Shown here piece after piece: positions 5,814 to 13,015 of a stretch of 34,657 bases of DNA. The notes under the pieces are model-generated. The model saw only the letters and a program-made list of their open reading frames with translations. It made no database searches and was not told where the DNA came from. The stretch is from an uncultured Flavobacteriales bacterium. Its GTDB lineage: Bacteria; Bacteroidota; Bacteroidia; Palsa-965. The stretch's first letter is position 1. Each line of letters starts with the position of its first letter. The stretch lies in assembly GCA_903873905.1 (NCBI GenBank), contig CAIQQJ010000035.1, positions 1-34,657 of the forward strand, given 5' to 3'. The position numbers and the translations under genes are program-made.

Positions 5814-7685
5814 ATGAAGCGAATTCTTCCAATTATTTTGATGTTCATTTCCGTTTTGTCTTTAGCACAATCCACCATTCCCAATACAACTGGAAATGGG
5901 AAAGGCAAAAAAGTTCCTGCGCCTAAAGCCGCTCCTTCCAAACCAATAAAGAAAATTGAATATTGGGATGAGCAAAAGAAACATAAGAAAAGTGAAGAGT
6001 TTCTCGTTGACGGAAAATTGGAGGGGAAAGCATATTATTATTCTCAAGAGGGGAAGTTGGACCATTCTGGGGCGTATAAAAATGGTAAGCAGGATAGCAT
6101 TTGGACTTTTTATTTTGCAGAGGGAAATAAGAAAGGTGAAGAAAGATATTTTGAAGGAAAAAAAAGTGGACCAGCCTCCTATTGGTATAAAAACGGGAAA
6201 CTCTATTTGACGTGCAAATTTGTTGAAGATCTTCCGGATAGTACTTGGACTTCCTATTTCGAAAACGGAAAAATCAACAGCGTTGAACAATATCAGATTC
6301 AATTCAAGAATTACAAATGGTCGTCGAAAAAGAATGGACATTGTCAATATTGGCAAGAAAATGGGAAACAAATTGCCGATGAATATTTTGTGAATGATAC
6401 ATTGAATGGGAAATATATTACGTGGTATTCAAATGGGAATAAAAAAGAGGAAGGTGAATATTCAGATGGAAAAAAATCTGCAAGATGGAAGGATTATTAT
6501 GAAAATGGAAAGCCTCTTGATGAAATGGAATACAAGAATGGAATTGAATACATGTGGGAGTTGTGGGCGGAGGATGGAAAGCAGGTAATCAAGAATGGTT
6601 ATGGTAAAATGATTCTCACTTATGAAAGTGGAAAAGAACGTGGCGAAGGAATTTATCGCGATGGTTTGAAAGACAGCACTTGGACTTTTTATGCACCTTC
6701 TGGAAAAACTGATTTCAAAGATGATTTTAAGAATGGGAAAAAGAATGGACAGTCAATTCATTGGTATGAAGACGGAAAAAAATCAATTGAAGGACAATAT
6801 TTAAATGATCAGAAAACAGGTTTGTGGACTTGGTACAAAGCAGATGGCAACATTGACATGAAAGGTGAGTTTCTCAATGATAAAAGAAATGGTCATTGGC
6901 AATATTGGTTTGCAGATAGCAAGCAAAAACAAATGGACGGTTGGTACAAGGATGATAAAGAAGACAGCACCTGGATTTTCTGGTATCCGAATGCACAATT
7001 ATATAAAACGGGGCCGTTCAAAAATGGAATGAAAAATGGTTCATGGACTTTCTATTTTGAAAACGGACAAAAATTGCAAGAAGGAATTTACATTGACAAT
7101 AAGGAAAATGGCGCGTGGTCTTCTTGGTATGACAATGGACAATTAAAAGATGAAGGAAGTTTCAAATTGGGATTGATGGTTGCAGATTGGAAAGGATATT
7201 ATGATAATGGCAAGCCAAATTATGCTGGAAAATATGCAAATGGTGTGAAGGATGGCGCGTGGCAATTTTGGTGGAAAAATGGAAAGGTTCATCAGCAGGG
7301 AAAATTCAAAATGGGCTTGAAGGAAGGAAAATGGATTTCCTATTATGAAACCGGTTATGTTGATGAAGCAGGGAGTTATCATCTGGACAAGGCAGATGGA
7401 AAGTGGTTGTATTATTATGAAACCGGCGCATTGAAAACGGAGACGAATTATCAGTTGGGAAAACTTTCCGGAAAGACTGTAAATTATTATGAGAGCACCA
7501 AGAAACAAAGTGTGACCTACAACAAAATTTATAAGGAGAAAGAATACTTATTGACCAAAGCAAATGGCAAGAAGGTTTACAAGATTCGATATGTAAGTAA
7601 ACCAAATGGCACTTGGACTTATTATGATCTGAACGGAAGTGTGCTTTCAGAAATAAAATACAAGAATGGAGCAAAGGTCCAGTAG
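5814..7685 (+). CDS. Secreted protein made of about 22 MORN-type (YwqK-like) repeats
   Basis: This is a 623-residue protein with a signal peptide (MKRILPIILMFISVLSLAQS) followed almost entirely by about 22 repeats of 23-24 residues. The repeat pattern is roughly W-x-x-Y-Y-x-x-G-K-x-x-x-x-G-x-Y-K-x-G-x-K-x-G, for example SWTFYFENGQKLQEG and KWISYYETGYVDEAG. These are MORN_2-type repeats that stack into an elongated beta sheet. Databases often label such proteins as YwqK-family antitoxins, but nothing here supports a toxin-antitoxin role: there is no partner gene, and this protein is exported. There is no T9SS sorting domain and no lipobox, so it is probably periplasmic or loosely attached. The repeats are AAAATGG-rich at DNA level but clearly diverged. 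Confidence 0.88.
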   Translation: MKRILPIILMFISVLSLAQSTIPNTTGNGKGKKVPAPKAAPSKPIKKIEYWDEQKKHKKSEEFLVDGKLEGKAYYYSQEGKLDHSGAYKNGKQDSIWTFYFAEGNKKGEERYFEGKKSGPASYWYKNGKLYLTCKFVEDLPDSTWTSYFENGKINSVEQYQIQFKNYKWSSKKNGHCQYWQENGKQIADEYFVNDTLNGKYITWYSNGNKKEEGEYSDGKKSARWKDYYENGKPLDEMEYKNGIEYMWELWAEDGKQVIKNGYGKMILTYESGKERGEGIYRDGLKDSTWTFYAPSGKTDFKDDFKNGKKNGQSIHWYEDGKKSIEGQYLNDQKTGLWTWYKADGNIDMKGEFLNDKRNGHWQYWFADSKQKQMDGWYKDDKEDSTWIFWYPNAQLYKTGPFKNGMKNGSWTFYFENGQKLQEGIYIDNKENGAWSSWYDNGQLKDEGSFKLGLMVADWKGYYDNGKPNYAGKYANGVKDGAWQFWWKNGKVHQQGKFKMGLKEGKWISYYETGYVDEAGSYHLDKADGKWLYYYETGALKTETNYQLGKLSGKTVNYYESTKKQSVTYNKIYKEKEYLLTKANGKKVYKIRYVSKPNGTWTYYDLNGSVLSEIKYKNGAKVQ

Positions 7686-7700
7686 AACTTACTGCATTAG

Positions 7701-7736
7701 AAATCCCATCTCGATTTATTCGGGATGGGATTTTTT
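7701..7736 (+). terminator. Intrinsic terminator after the MORN-repeat gene
   Basis: AAATCCCATCTCG (7701-7713) pairs with CGGGATGGGATTT (7721-7733) across a seven-base loop, with one G-T pair and a T-run to 7736. The convergent small membrane-protein gene ends 22 bases further on. Confidence 0.9.
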
Positions 7737-7758
7737 CATTTAAAAATGCACCTTTCTC

Positions 7759-8082
7759 TTAAGAAGTTTTCTTTTTTAATTTTCTGAAGTGGGGGTCATG
7801 CGGGTGGTCAAAATGTTTTTGCGGCCTTTGCGAACCGTCATGATTTGCAGAAACTTTTGAAGACCCTTTGCTTTGTGCCGCACCAATAAACCATGCAAGC
7901 AGGATAACACCGACAATCATACCAACATAACCGAGTATTTCAAGCAAAGAAATCCCATCGCTTGACTTGGCTGGTGTTTGTTGTGCCATAGCCTGTTGTC
8001 CTTGCAAAAGGAGAAAAAGAAGTGCGGTTGGTTTGATGATTTGAACCCCACGCATGCGCATTAAAGTCGTTTTTGTCATCAT
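7759..8082 (-). CDS. Small membrane protein with His-rich cytoplasmic-type tail, function unknown
   Basis: I do not recognise this 107-residue protein. It begins with a signal-peptide-like stretch ending QGQQAMAQ. One strong membrane helix follows (about residues 46-68, LLEILGYVGMIVGVILLAWFIGAA). The tail is polar and rich in His, Lys and Asp (NHDGSQRPQKHFDHPHDPHFRKLKKK). The reading could start at 8082 or at the adjacent ATG at 8079. Two more in-frame methionines follow at residues 8 and 10, and the latter gives a more typical signal peptide. It is divergent from rimP, and the 223-base gap between them carries the rimP promoter. The composition looks natural for a real gene, but homology is untested. 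Confidence 0.65.
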   Translation of the reverse strand: MMTKTTLMRMRGVQIIKPTALLFLLLQGQQAMAQQTPAKSSDGISLLEILGYVGMIVGVILLAWFIGAAQSKGSSKVSANHDGSQRPQKHFDHPHDPHFRKLKKKTS

Positions 8083-8216: not shown

Positions 8217-8247
8217 TTGTTTTTTTGCTTTCTTAGTCTTATATTTG
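8217..8247 (+). promoter_or_regulatory. Promoter of the rimP-nusA-infB operon
   Basis: TTG at 8217-8219 is followed, after exactly 20 bases, by TATATTTG at 8240-8247, a full match to the Bacteroidetes -33/-7 promoter. Transcription should begin near 8253-8255, giving a leader of about 50 bases before rimP. The dxs promoter has the identical spacing and the identical -7 box. Confidence 0.8.
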
Positions 8248-8274
8248 CCTCCTGTTATAAAAGAAGGATCAGAT

Positions 8275-8302
8275 CAGGGGACGCTTAGTCCCCTGTTTTT
8301 TT
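8275..8302 (+). terminator. Terminator-like hairpin in the rimP leader (candidate attenuator)
   Basis: CAGGGGAC (8275-8282) pairs perfectly with GTCCCCTG (8288-8295) around a GCTTA loop, and seven T residues follow at 8296-8302. The rimP ATG starts only three bases later. The structure is therefore a complete intrinsic terminator lying between the operon promoter and its first codon, suggesting that a share of transcripts stops here. Confidence 0.8.
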
Positions 8303-8305
8303 GTC

Positions 8306-8770
8306 ATGATTAGCACGGCACTCATACGCGAAATCGCTGAAAATAAGCTACGAGAAAACGAAAGTTTCCTGGTAGATGTCATAATTAGCCCCACGAATAA
8401 AATTCGGGTTACGATTGATAATTTTCAAGGCGTATCCATTCAGGAATGTGTTAGTGTGAGTAGGTTTATTGAAAACCAACTTGATCGTGAAGCTGAAGAT
8501 TTTGAACTTGAAGTAAGTTCACCGGGTCTCGATCAACCTTTTAAGGTGCTTCAACAGTATCAAAAATATCTCGGACGAGAGGTGGAGATAAAGTTTTTTG
8601 AAGGAAAAAAAACAGAAGGTAAATTAGTTGCAGTAAATGAAAAGGAAATAGAATTAGAACAATCTTCAAAAGAAAAAATCGAAGGGAAAAAGGGAAAACA
8701 ATTGGTGACAAAACGGTTGAACCTTCCTTTTGAAAAAATAAAAGAAACAAAAATCATTATCAAATTCTGA
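8306..8770 (+). CDS. rimP: Ribosome maturation factor RimP
   Basis: RimP binds the 30S subunit and is needed for its late assembly. The protein has 154 residues, the normal length. The N-terminal alpha/beta domain contains the conserved run EDFELEVSSPGLDQPF (about residues 64-79). The C-terminal SH3-like barrel follows (GREVEIKFFEGKKTEGKLVAVNEKEIEL). It is the first gene of the conserved rimP-nusA-infB operon, 42 bases before nusA. The start at 8306 gives the standard N-terminus. No Shine-Dalgarno sequence is possible because the T-tract of the leader hairpin abuts the ATG, which fits the usual weak use of such sites in this phylum. Confidence 0.95.
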   Translation: MISTALIREIAENKLRENESFLVDVIISPTNKIRVTIDNFQGVSIQECVSVSRFIENQLDREAEDFELEVSSPGLDQPFKVLQQYQKYLGREVEIKFFEGKKTEGKLVAVNEKEIELEQSSKEKIEGKKGKQLVTKRLNLPFEKIKETKIIIKF

Positions 8771-8812: not shown

Positions 8813-10063
8813 ATGGAAAATATAAACCTCATCGAATCCTTTTCGGAATTCAAAGAGACAAAAAACATCGACCGTGCAATGCTTATGAGCATTTTGGAAG
8901 ACGTTTTCCGCAGCATGATCCGTAAAAAATACGGCAGCGATGAAAATTTCGATTTCATTGTTAACCCTGAACGTGGTGACTTGGAAATCTGGCGTAACCG
9001 GGAAATTGTTGACGATGAATTCGCTGATGATAGTTTTGATTACGATGAAAACAAACATATCAGTCTTGCAAATGCAAAGAAAATCGAACCCGATTTTGAA
9101 ATAGGCGAGCAGGTAACTGATCGTATTTTGCTTGATGATTTCGGTCGTCGTGCTGTTCTTGCTATTCGTCAGAATCTAGTGTCTCGTGTTCTTGATCTTG
9201 AAAAAGATGCGCTGTATCGCAAATACAAAGAGCGTGTTGGCGATGTGATCACTGGTGAAGTTTACCAGGTATGGAAAAAAGAAACACTTGTTCTCGATGA
9301 TGAGGGAAATGAATTGATCCTTCCTAAAGTAGAACAGATTCCTGGAGATTTTTTCAAAAAAGGAGATGCGGTTCGTGCTGTTGTTTTGAAAGTGGACATG
9401 CGCAACAATTCTCCCGTAATTATTTTGTCTCGTACAGCTCCTTCCTTCCTCGAGAAATTATTCGAAATGGAAGTGCCTGAAATTTATGATGGACTTATAA
9501 CGGTTAAGAAAATTGTTCGTGAACCAGGTGAACGTGCAAAAGTTGCAGTTGAATCTTATGATGATCGTATTGATCCCGTTGGAGCTTGTGTAGGAATGAA
9601 AGGATCTCGTATCCATGGTATCGTTCGTGAGTTGCGAAATGAAAATATCGACGTAATTAATTACACAGCAAATTCACAACTGCTTATTTCACGCGCACTC
9701 AGTCCAGCGAAAATCACTTCTGTAAAACTGGATGAAGAAAACAAACGTGCTGAAGTTTATTTGAAACCAGATCAGGTTTCTCTGGCAATTGGAAAAGGTG
9801 GACACAACATTCGTTTGGCTGGTCGTTTGACAGGTTATGAAATTGATGTCTATCGTGATACCGATGAAGATGTGGAGGATGTTACACTCGATGAATTCTC
9901 GGATGAAATTGAACAATGGATCATTGACGAATTCAAATCTGTTGGTTGTGATACTGCGAAAGCTGTACTTGAACTGAGCGATGAAGAACTTGTTAAGCGT
10001 ACCGACCTTGAAGAAGAAACAGTAAAAGAGGTAAAACGTATCCTTCGCACTGAATTTGAATAA
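8813..10063 (+). CDS. nusA: Transcription termination/antitermination protein NusA
   Basis: NusA binds RNA polymerase and the nascent transcript and governs pausing, intrinsic termination and antitermination. The 416-residue protein has the usual order. The N-terminal polymerase-binding domain covers about 1-130. The S1 domain covers about 140-205 (GDVITGEVYQVWKKETLVL). KH1 has GMKGSRI, and KH2 has GKGGHNIRLAGRLTG. A short acidic helix-hairpin-helix-like tail follows (SDEELVKRTDLEEETVKEVKRIL). It is shorter than the 495-residue E. coli protein, which carries two acidic repeats, and close to what I expect for Bacteroidetes. It sits between rimP and infB and may act on the leader hairpin of its own operon. 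Confidence 0.96.
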   Translation: MENINLIESFSEFKETKNIDRAMLMSILEDVFRSMIRKKYGSDENFDFIVNPERGDLEIWRNREIVDDEFADDSFDYDENKHISLANAKKIEPDFEIGEQVTDRILLDDFGRRAVLAIRQNLVSRVLDLEKDALYRKYKERVGDVITGEVYQVWKKETLVLDDEGNELILPKVEQIPGDFFKKGDAVRAVVLKVDMRNNSPVIILSRTAPSFLEKLFEMEVPEIYDGLITVKKIVREPGERAKVAVESYDDRIDPVGACVGMKGSRIHGIVRELRNENIDVINYTANSQLLISRALSPAKITSVKLDEENKRAEVYLKPDQVSLAIGKGGHNIRLAGRLTGYEIDVYRDTDEDVEDVTLDEFSDEIEQWIIDEFKSVGCDTAKAVLELSDEELVKRTDLEEETVKEVKRILRTEFE

Positions 10064-10147: not shown

Positions 10148-13015
10148 ATGGCAGAATCAGAAAATAAAATCCGGATCAGTAAAGTCAAGGGAGAATTTAA
10201 TGTCTCGCTTGCACGTCTTTGGGATTATCTCGAGGAAAAAGGACAAAAGACCGACCGGAATCCTAATGGAAAAATATCGGAGGAGCAATACAGTCTCCTT
10301 CTGAAAGAATTTGCGCAAGACCGTGAGGAGAAGAAAGAATCAAAGCTTGTAGGCCTTTCAACCAGAACAAAAAAAGAGACGGTAGAAATGCCGGAAGAGG
10401 TAAGTACAAAAGCGCAGCAAAGAGCAATTGAGCGTGATCAGGAGGAGGTCCTCATTAAGGACATGAATTCGACCACCTCAAAAACAGCACCGACTCCTGA
10501 GAAGGAAAAACCAAAGAAAGTCGTTGAGAAACAGGAAGAGGAAGTTGTCAGAGTAAAAGCAGAGTCCAAAGTAAATCTGAAAGTCATTTCGAAAATTGAT
10601 CTTGAGCCAGCAAAAACGAAAGCGAAGAAAAAGAAAGTTGAAGAGCCTGCTCCAGAACCAGAACCTGAGAAAAAAGTATCTGTACCTGTAGTTGAAGTTC
10701 CAGTGTCTGTGCCTGTGCCTGTGCCTGTGGTCGAAGTCCCAGTACCTGTGGTCGAAGTTCCAGCACCTGTGGTTGAAGTTCCAGCACCTGTCATTGAAGT
10801 ACCAGTTCCGGAAGTAATTCCTGATAAACCAGAAGAAGTACTTTATCGTCGCAGTGTCGAGAAATTGGAAGGTCCGAAAATCATGGGCAAGATTGAATTG
10901 CCTGTTAAGGAAGACAAGAAAAAACCTGTTGCATCTTCATCTGCTGAATTCGAAGCAGCTAAGAAAAGAAAACGCCGCCGCATCCGTAAAGAAGGCGGAC
11001 CGGTAAATAACGCACCTGGTGCACAAGCGCCTGGGAACCGTGGTCCAGGTACTGGAGGTCACATTGCAGGCAACAGAAAACTTGTTGCCACTCCACGTGC
11101 GCCGAAAGCTGAACTAACAGAAGAAGAAGTTCAGAAACAAATCAAGGAAACACTCGCACGATTAAGCGGTGCAGGAAAATCAAAAGCCTCCAAATACCGT
11201 CGTGATAAACGTGAACAAGTTTCTCAGCGAATTGAAAAAGAAGCTGCTGATAAGGAAATTGAAAAAGGAATTCTTAAGGTAACTGAATTCGTTACTGCGA
11301 ATCAGCTTGCAACAATGATGAATGTACCTGTTACGCAGATTATTTCTACCTGCATGACAATCGGTCTTTTTGTTTCTATCAACCAACGTTTGGATGCTGA
11401 AACAATTGCCATTCTCGCTGAAGAATTCGGATTTAAAGTTGAATTTGTAAGTGTTGAAGTTCAAGAATCCATTGTTGAGGAAGAAGATAAACCGGAAGAT
11501 CTTTTGGATCGCTCACCAATTGTTACGGTGATGGGTCACGTCGATCATGGAAAAACATCCTTGCTGGATTATGTACGTAAAGCAAATGTAATTGCTGGTG
11601 AAGCCGGTGGAATTACCCAGCATATTGGTGCATACAATGTTCAACTTGAAAACGGAAAACACATTACATTCCTTGACACTCCGGGTCACGAAGCGTTTAC
11701 CGCTATGCGTGCACGTGGTGCGCAGGTAACAGATATTGCAATTATTGTTGTTGCAGCTGACGATAGTGTCATGCCACAAACTGTAGAGGCGATTAACCAC
11801 GCACAAGCTGCTGGTGTACCACTAGTATTCGCGATAAATAAAATTGATAAGCCAGGTGCAAATCCTGATAAAATACGTGAAGCACTTTCTGCGATGAATA
11901 TTCTTGTCGAAGAATGGGGCGGTAAATTCCAATGCCAAGAAATTTCTGCAAAGAAAGGGCAGGGTATTGAAGACCTTCTTGAAAAAGTTTTGTTGGAAGC
12001 TGAAATGTTACAATTGAAAGCGAATCCGAATAAGCGTGCAACGGGAACAATCATTGAATCTACACTTGATAAAGGACGTGGATTTACTGCAACTGTTCTT
12101 GTAGAAAACGGAACGATGCGTGTTGGCGATGTTGTACTTGCTGGTTGTTATTCTGGTCGTGTAAAAGCGATGCATAACGAACGTGGCGGTGATGTTGAAG
12201 AAGCTGGTCCTTCCTATCCGGTTCAAATTCTTGGATTGAGTGGAGCGCCACAAGCGGGTGATAAATTTAATATCATGGCAGATGAGCGTGAAGCGCGTGA
12301 TATCGCAACACGTCGTTTACAATTGCAACGTGAACAATCTATTCGTACTACAAAACACATTACGCTTGATGAAATTGGTCGTCGTCTTGCTATTGGTGAT
12401 TTCCAAGAATTGAATGTCATTATCAAAGGTGACGTAGATGGATCCATTGAAGCGCTTGCCGATTCATTATTGAAACTTTCAACTGAGAAAATTCAGATTC
12501 GCATCATTCATAAATCTGTTGGTGCCATTTCTGAATCTGATATTCTTCTTGCTTCTGCTTCAAACGCGATCATCATTGGATTCCAAGTTCGTCCTTCTGC
12601 GAGTGCGAAAAAATTGGCAGAGACCGAACAAATTGATATCCGACTTTATTCCATCATTTACAAAGCGATTGATGAAATCAAGGCTGCTATGGAAGGAATG
12701 TTGGCGCCAGAATTTGAAGAAAAAATTACTTGCAACGTTGAAGTTCGTGAAGTGTTCAAGATTACCAAAGTCGGAACTGTTGCAGGTGCTTATGTACTTG
12801 ATGGAAAAATCAATCGTCATACAAAAATCCGAATCATTAGAAATGGAATTGTATTGCATGATGGAAACCTCGGTTCACTCAAACGTTTCAAGGATGATGT
12901 AAAAGAAGTTACTTCTGGTTACGAGTGCGGATTGAACATTGACAAATTTGATAACATCGAAACTGGAGATATTATTGAAGGATATGAAATGGTGGAGATA
13001 AAGGCGAAACTATAG
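10148..13015 (+). CDS. infB: Translation initiation factor IF-2
   Basis: IF-2 is the GTPase that brings initiator tRNA to the ribosome and promotes subunit joining. The protein has 955 residues. The N-terminal IF2 subdomain ([20 protein letters not shown]) is followed by a charged linker. That linker contains a Val/Pro/Glu repeat tract (about residues 177-224, built from VEVPAPV and VEVPVPV units) and a basic stretch ([10 protein letters not shown]). The IF2_N helix is near 378-440. The G domain starts about residue 457 with G1 GHVDHGKT, then DTPGHEAF (G3) and NKIDKPGAN (G4). Beta-barrel domains II-IV follow, including the [13 protein letters not shown] segment. It ends the rimP-nusA-infB operon and is followed by a strong terminator. 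Confidence 0.97.

Follow-up and report, generated by a model that had tools for sequence, protein, structure and literature searches.

The rimP-leader of Naville and Gautheret (2010) is described as the most ubiquitous predicted attenuator, and its traits are a terminator stem of the type GGGc(...)gCCC, a T-stretch, a distance of 4-130 nt to the gene and the lack of an antiterminator (PMC2965389). These authors argued from the GGGc..gCCC motif for specific protein binding; the main text of their paper, as distinct from its supplement, does not mention the Bacteroidota (PMC2965389). NusA of Bacillus subtilis autoregulates through leader termination (PMC12288461), and RNA-seq of Streptococcus agalactiae revealed a short RNA whose 3′ end lies 31 nt past the rimP start site, at an intrinsic terminator, for which feedback by NusA was proposed (PMC4448216). 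The Escherichia coli operon is reported to be regulated by NusA and its leader to be cut by RNase III (PMC6511841). In E. coli K-12, GGGC-TTTAG-GCCC followed by T7 is located just before rimP, downstream of a CCCCG..CGGGG terminator with T6. A structured 5′ element has been reported before rimP in Flavobacterium psychrophilum, where it is conserved in other Flavobacteriaceae and has no Rfam match (PMC9723704).

Here we analyse a rimP leader from an uncultured Flavobacteriales bacterium, within a stretch of DNA of 34,657 nucleotides (termed the window), and the comparison gives good support to the view that its hairpin is the form taken in the Bacteroidota by the rimP-leader attenuator already described. 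Like that attenuator, the element sits in the leader of rimP-nusA-infB and comprises a single hairpin with a G-run in the 5′ arm, a C-run in the 3′ arm and C-G closure, in agreement with the GGGc(...)gCCC-type motif, and the stem is directly followed by a T-stretch (T7 in the window). The described range of 4-130 nt from the gene start includes the window (10 nt) and its relatives (10-107 nt), apart from one at about 217 nt, and the leaders are without an antiterminator, apart from a weak CCUG:CAGG match at the level of the genus. Two features differ from the published description: the Bacteroidia consensus is GGGGAC..GTCCCC, in which an extra A-U (or G-U, or G-C) pair separates the G-run from the closing pair, and a Bacteroidota -7 box is present at near-fixed spacing.

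The Rfam rimP leader of the Gammaproteobacteria (RF01770) shares the gene context and the location of a terminator before rimP; its covariance model (cut-off 47 bits) gave no match at the window site even at E values up to 10, and a search of Rfam as a whole at E up to 10 returned no meaningful match at the hairpin. E. coli has two tandem terminators, unlike the single hairpin of the window. The predicted arrangement in the window, a short leader RNA that starts at the operon promoter and is ended by an intrinsic terminator, resembles the rimP/nusA leaders of S. agalactiae and B. subtilis, although these belong to another phylum and have another type of promoter, and the comparison made is one of layout. 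The F. psychrophilum element is from the same phylum as the window; the main text of that report gives neither a mechanism nor a phylum-wide extent (PMC9723704). On our reading, an attenuator that is very widespread, though little studied, would extend to all of the phylum Bacteroidota, in which transcription termination is less studied and the rimP-leader form has no Rfam family.

The rimP leader of the window

The features of the locus are as follows, with the basis of each assignment in brackets.

7759-8082, minus strand: divergent upstream open reading frame, family without assignment (no Pfam or NCBIfam match)
8217-8219, plus strand: TTG, putative upstream (-33) promoter element, 20 nt 5′ of the -7 box (sequence; weak alone)
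8240-8247, plus strand: TATATTTG, Bacteroidota -7 box of the form TAnnTTTG (sequence and recurrence of the box in rimP leaders)
8251-8274, plus strand: short untranslated leader 5′ of the hairpin (sequence and box-to-stem spacing in 124 loci)
8275-8282, plus strand: hairpin 5′ arm, CAGGGGAC (sequence, folding, covariation)
8283-8287, plus strand: loop, GCTTA (sequence)
8288-8295, plus strand: hairpin 3′ arm, GTCCCCTG (sequence, folding, covariation)
8296-8302, plus strand: T7 tract, expected termination site (sequence; a T-run is common among relatives)
8306-8770, plus strand: rimP, ribosome maturation factor (Pfam PF02576/PF17384; NCBIfam NF002531)
8813-10063, plus strand: nusA, with N-terminal, S1 and KH domains, the proposed sensor (Pfam; TIGR01953)
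10148-13015, plus strand: infB, IF-2 (Pfam; TIGR00487)

Read directly, the leader runs in the order TTG, 20 nt, TATATTTG, hairpin, T7, GTC and the rimP ATG at 8306. The promoter TTG-N20-TATATTTG, the 8-bp hairpin, the 5-base loop and the seven T residues given in an earlier note on this DNA are thus exact to the base, and its naming of the operon as rimP-nusA-infB agrees with Pfam and with NCBIfam models for RimP (NF002531), NusA (TIGR01953) and IF-2 (TIGR00487), all above cut-off. The statement in the same note that the structure ends three bases before the ATG holds for the end of the T-run but not for the stem, which ends 10 nt before it. Transcription would start at about 8251-8254, as estimated from the position of the -7 box. 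The divergent open reading frame has no match in either Pfam or NCBIfam and, because it is divergent, cannot be terminated by the hairpin.

The stem (8275-8295 with its 5-nt loop) has 8 bp, six of them G-C pairs, and is the dominant fold of the 81-nt stretch, but an equally good fold was obtained in 7 of 200 shuffles, and 23 terminator-like sites lie in the first 20 kb of the window against 16.8 expected, so that the evidence from this single sequence is modest. Within the genome, GGGGAC-n3-8-GTCCCC occurs only once in 3.93 Mb, in the rimP leader, whereas the backward pattern is found at three places.

CCTG at the start of the leader (8251-8254) could pair with CAGG in the 5′ arm (8275-8278), at -5.3 kcal/mol, and the same match is present in leaders L003, L004, L007 and L008 (-2.8 to -5.8 kcal/mol). 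It is possible that this CCUG:CAGG pairing acts as a weak competitor of the hairpin, limited to the genus of the window and a near relative. A search for an antiterminator over 124 loci found none conserved, the duplex between leader and 5′ arm averaging -0.98 kcal/mol against -1.34 kcal/mol in shuffles.

Conservation of the hairpin and its promoter in Bacteroidia

Leaders of rimP were collected by searching 99 related whole genomes and from 80 loci found via NusA in genome contigs; after removal of a duplicate of the window and of loci without usable upstream sequence, the final set comprised 145 leaders including that of the window itself. A hairpin whose 5′ arm contains a run of G and whose 3′ arm contains a run of C is present in 143 of these, 139 recognised by script and four by eye, namely L019, L054 (GGAGGAGG..CCTCC), L136 and L144, the last with its hairpin about 217 nt 5′ of the start codon. 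Conservation in close relatives, which the earlier note had set as a test that could refute its proposal, is therefore borne out. The hairpin is absent only from L133 and L151, which both come from small genomes (2.2-2.3 Mb). L151 has a TACCTTTG box immediately 5′ of the start codon. Under a fixed criterion (at least 6 bp, at least four G-C pairs, at least five T in 8 nt and no more than 120 nt from the start), 132 of 144 rimP leaders passed. Among the other genes of these loci whose upstream sequence is free, 3 of 191 passed, as did 1 of 720 shuffles of rimP leaders. This comparative evidence is decisive that the hairpin is not due to chance.

At least five T residues occur among the first 8 nt 3′ of the stem in 133 of 139 loci, whereas an A-run is found on the other side in just 38 of 139, indicating that the element is directional. 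Covariation was assessed in 49 sequences of equal loop length (4 nt), in which 99.2% of cells are paired and 25 cells carry a change at both partners, compared with 4.9 in shuffles; this signal disappears in the same sequences once the pairing partner is slid. Compensatory changes are seen at five of the eight stem pairs. For example, the outer pair is variously G-C, U-A, C-G or A-U, and the A-U pair beside the loop-closing pair varies to G-U (7/49) and G-C. Taken together with loop lengths of 3-12 nt among relatives, the G-U pairs point to an RNA hairpin rather than a DNA operator. Three G-C pairs are invariant in the 49 sequences and the C-G closing pair is retained in 47, while diverged Bacteroidia have GGGCC/GGCCC or GGGGC/GCCCC stems, or GGGC..GCCC. 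Within the class, the stem is more constant than termination alone requires, which hints at a factor that reads its sequence.

Of 131 rimP leaders, 106 have the box TAnnTTTG in the 65 nt 5′ of the stem, against 5% in shuffles, and the end of the box lies 24.6 ± 5.9 nt from the stem (median 26, IQR 22-28, n=124 loci). The distance from stem to start codon is less tightly held (sd 10.5 nt, range 10-107 nt, and about 217 nt in L144). The position of the hairpin is therefore fixed relative to the promoter no less tightly than relative to the start codon, as would be expected of early termination more than of control over translation; the suggestion in the earlier note that the hairpin may also control rimP translation finds no support as a conserved feature. 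Among 95 loci scored, the box is accompanied by a divergent upstream gene in 46 and by a co-directional one in 36. Eight loci of the Bacteroidales type have a tRNA-Gln gene 5′ of the hairpin with no box between them. The tRNA-Gln gene is co-directional and 47-117 nt before rimP in L045, L046, L047, L053, L070, L071, L073 and L089, an arrangement that resembles metY-rimP of E. coli but with another tRNA.

Terminators before rimP in other classes of the Bacteroidota

A covariance model of the element (R1) found the rimP leader as its only site in the genome of the window at E up to 0.01, and the rimP leader was the best match in 26 of the 42 relatives that had any match. Other matches are often on both strands, as expected of ordinary bidirectional terminators. 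Across the phylum, 62 of 296 genomes were matched, a figure that is no measure of absence because the filters were strict and few candidates were taken from each genome, and the extent within the phylum was judged instead by reading leaders anchored on rimP. For this purpose 24 genomes outside the class Bacteroidia were taken, chosen for some R1 match elsewhere (a mild selection); rimP was found in 22 of them, and its leader could be read in 21.

All 21 of these leaders (L214-L234) contain a hairpin followed by at least five T before rimP, and for each of them no more than one shuffle in 30 was equally good. Their stems are unrelated, for instance GTGAGCG..CACTCAC, GTGGGG..CCCCAC, GTGGCC..GACCAC and TCGCCC..GGGCGA, and position, pairing and U-tract are therefore kept more deeply than stem sequence. 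At the level of sequence comparison, the hairpin, the U-tract and the promoter box with its spacing are conserved throughout the class, and the place of the terminator throughout the phylum. The change of stem from class to class at constant position, pairing and U-tract provides natural variants with which to ask whether NusA feedback reads the strength or the sequence of the terminator. One speculative and rather unlikely scenario is that the stem is both a terminator and a class-specific binding site, in which NusA (or RimP) of the Bacteroidia would read GGGGAC/GTCCCC, stem and protein having changed together between classes. If true, this would constitute sequence-specific autogenous termination within 50 nt of the start site, as opposed to plain NusA-stimulated termination.

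Regulation of the operon and alternative explanations

Conservation, covariation, the polarity of the U-tract, promoter spacing and the comparison with control genes together lend strong support to the earlier proposal of an intrinsic-terminator attenuator between the promoter and rimP. Neither the published rimP-leader class nor an extent over the whole phylum figures in the note that made this proposal. We consider it probable that this attenuator, of the rimP-leader kind, acts through partial termination in the leader that is raised by NusA, resulting in negative feedback on rimP-nusA-infB. RNA polymerase would start about 25 nt 5′ of the hairpin, some complexes would halt in the U-tract to give a leader RNA of ~50 nt, and the remainder would read through into rimP-nusA-infB. 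NusA, itself a product of the operon, would stimulate termination at the hairpin, such that more NusA leads to less readthrough. By analogy with B. subtilis, E. coli and S. agalactiae, feedback by NusA is likely at the leader in the window; we infer partial termination in vivo, with an efficiency governed by NusA.

It is less likely, and in our estimation improbable, that the hairpin is an unregulated partial terminator, which would impose a fixed low readthrough or shield the operon from transcription arriving from upstream, and would not sense NusA. The leaders have revealed neither an antiterminator nor a sensor domain, and 36 of the 95 loci scored combine a promoter box with a co-directional upstream gene, as such a role would allow. 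Insulation, however, does not call for a terminator 3′ of the promoter that drives the operon, whereas the box is 5′ of the hairpin in most loci, 46 of them with a divergent neighbour, and the equivalent leader of B. subtilis is reported to be NusA-dependent (PMC12288461). We give somewhat less credence again to the GGGGAC/GTCCCC stem as a specific protein site, bound by the KH domains of NusA, by RimP or by a ribosomal protein, that represses or antiterminates. The three invariant G-C pairs and the near-invariant closure are in its favour, as is the same argument made from the GGGc..gCCC motif (PMC2965389), but other classes keep the terminator with different stems (GTGAGCG.., GTGGGG.., TCGCCC..), as do the diverged Bacteroidia with GGGCC/GGCCC or GGGGC/GCCCC.

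It is very unlikely that the hairpin serves 5′ stability, RNase III cleavage or translational control instead of termination: the stem of the window does end 10 nt before the ATG, and RNase III processes the E. coli operon leader (PMC6511841), but such a role predicts neither the U-tract in 133 of 139 loci nor a distance to the start codon that varies from 10 to 107 nt, and ~217 nt in L144. A terminator of the upstream gene, as the eight Bacteroidales loci with tRNA-Gln and no intervening box might suggest, or a palindrome in the DNA that a repressor recognises, can scarcely be entertained, the former being rejected in the window by the divergent neighbour and the latter by loops of 3 to 12 nt and G-U for A-U in 7 of 49 sequences, which fit RNA.

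Further upstream on the plus strand, positions 5814-7685 encode a 623-aa protein with Pfam MORN_2 repeats, in a region of strong GC skew (0.30 over 6001-8000). A terminator-like hairpin, AAATCCCATC..GATGGGATTT, followed by T residues is located 3′ of this gene at 7701-7733 on the same strand, indicating that the upstream plus-strand unit has a terminator of its own.
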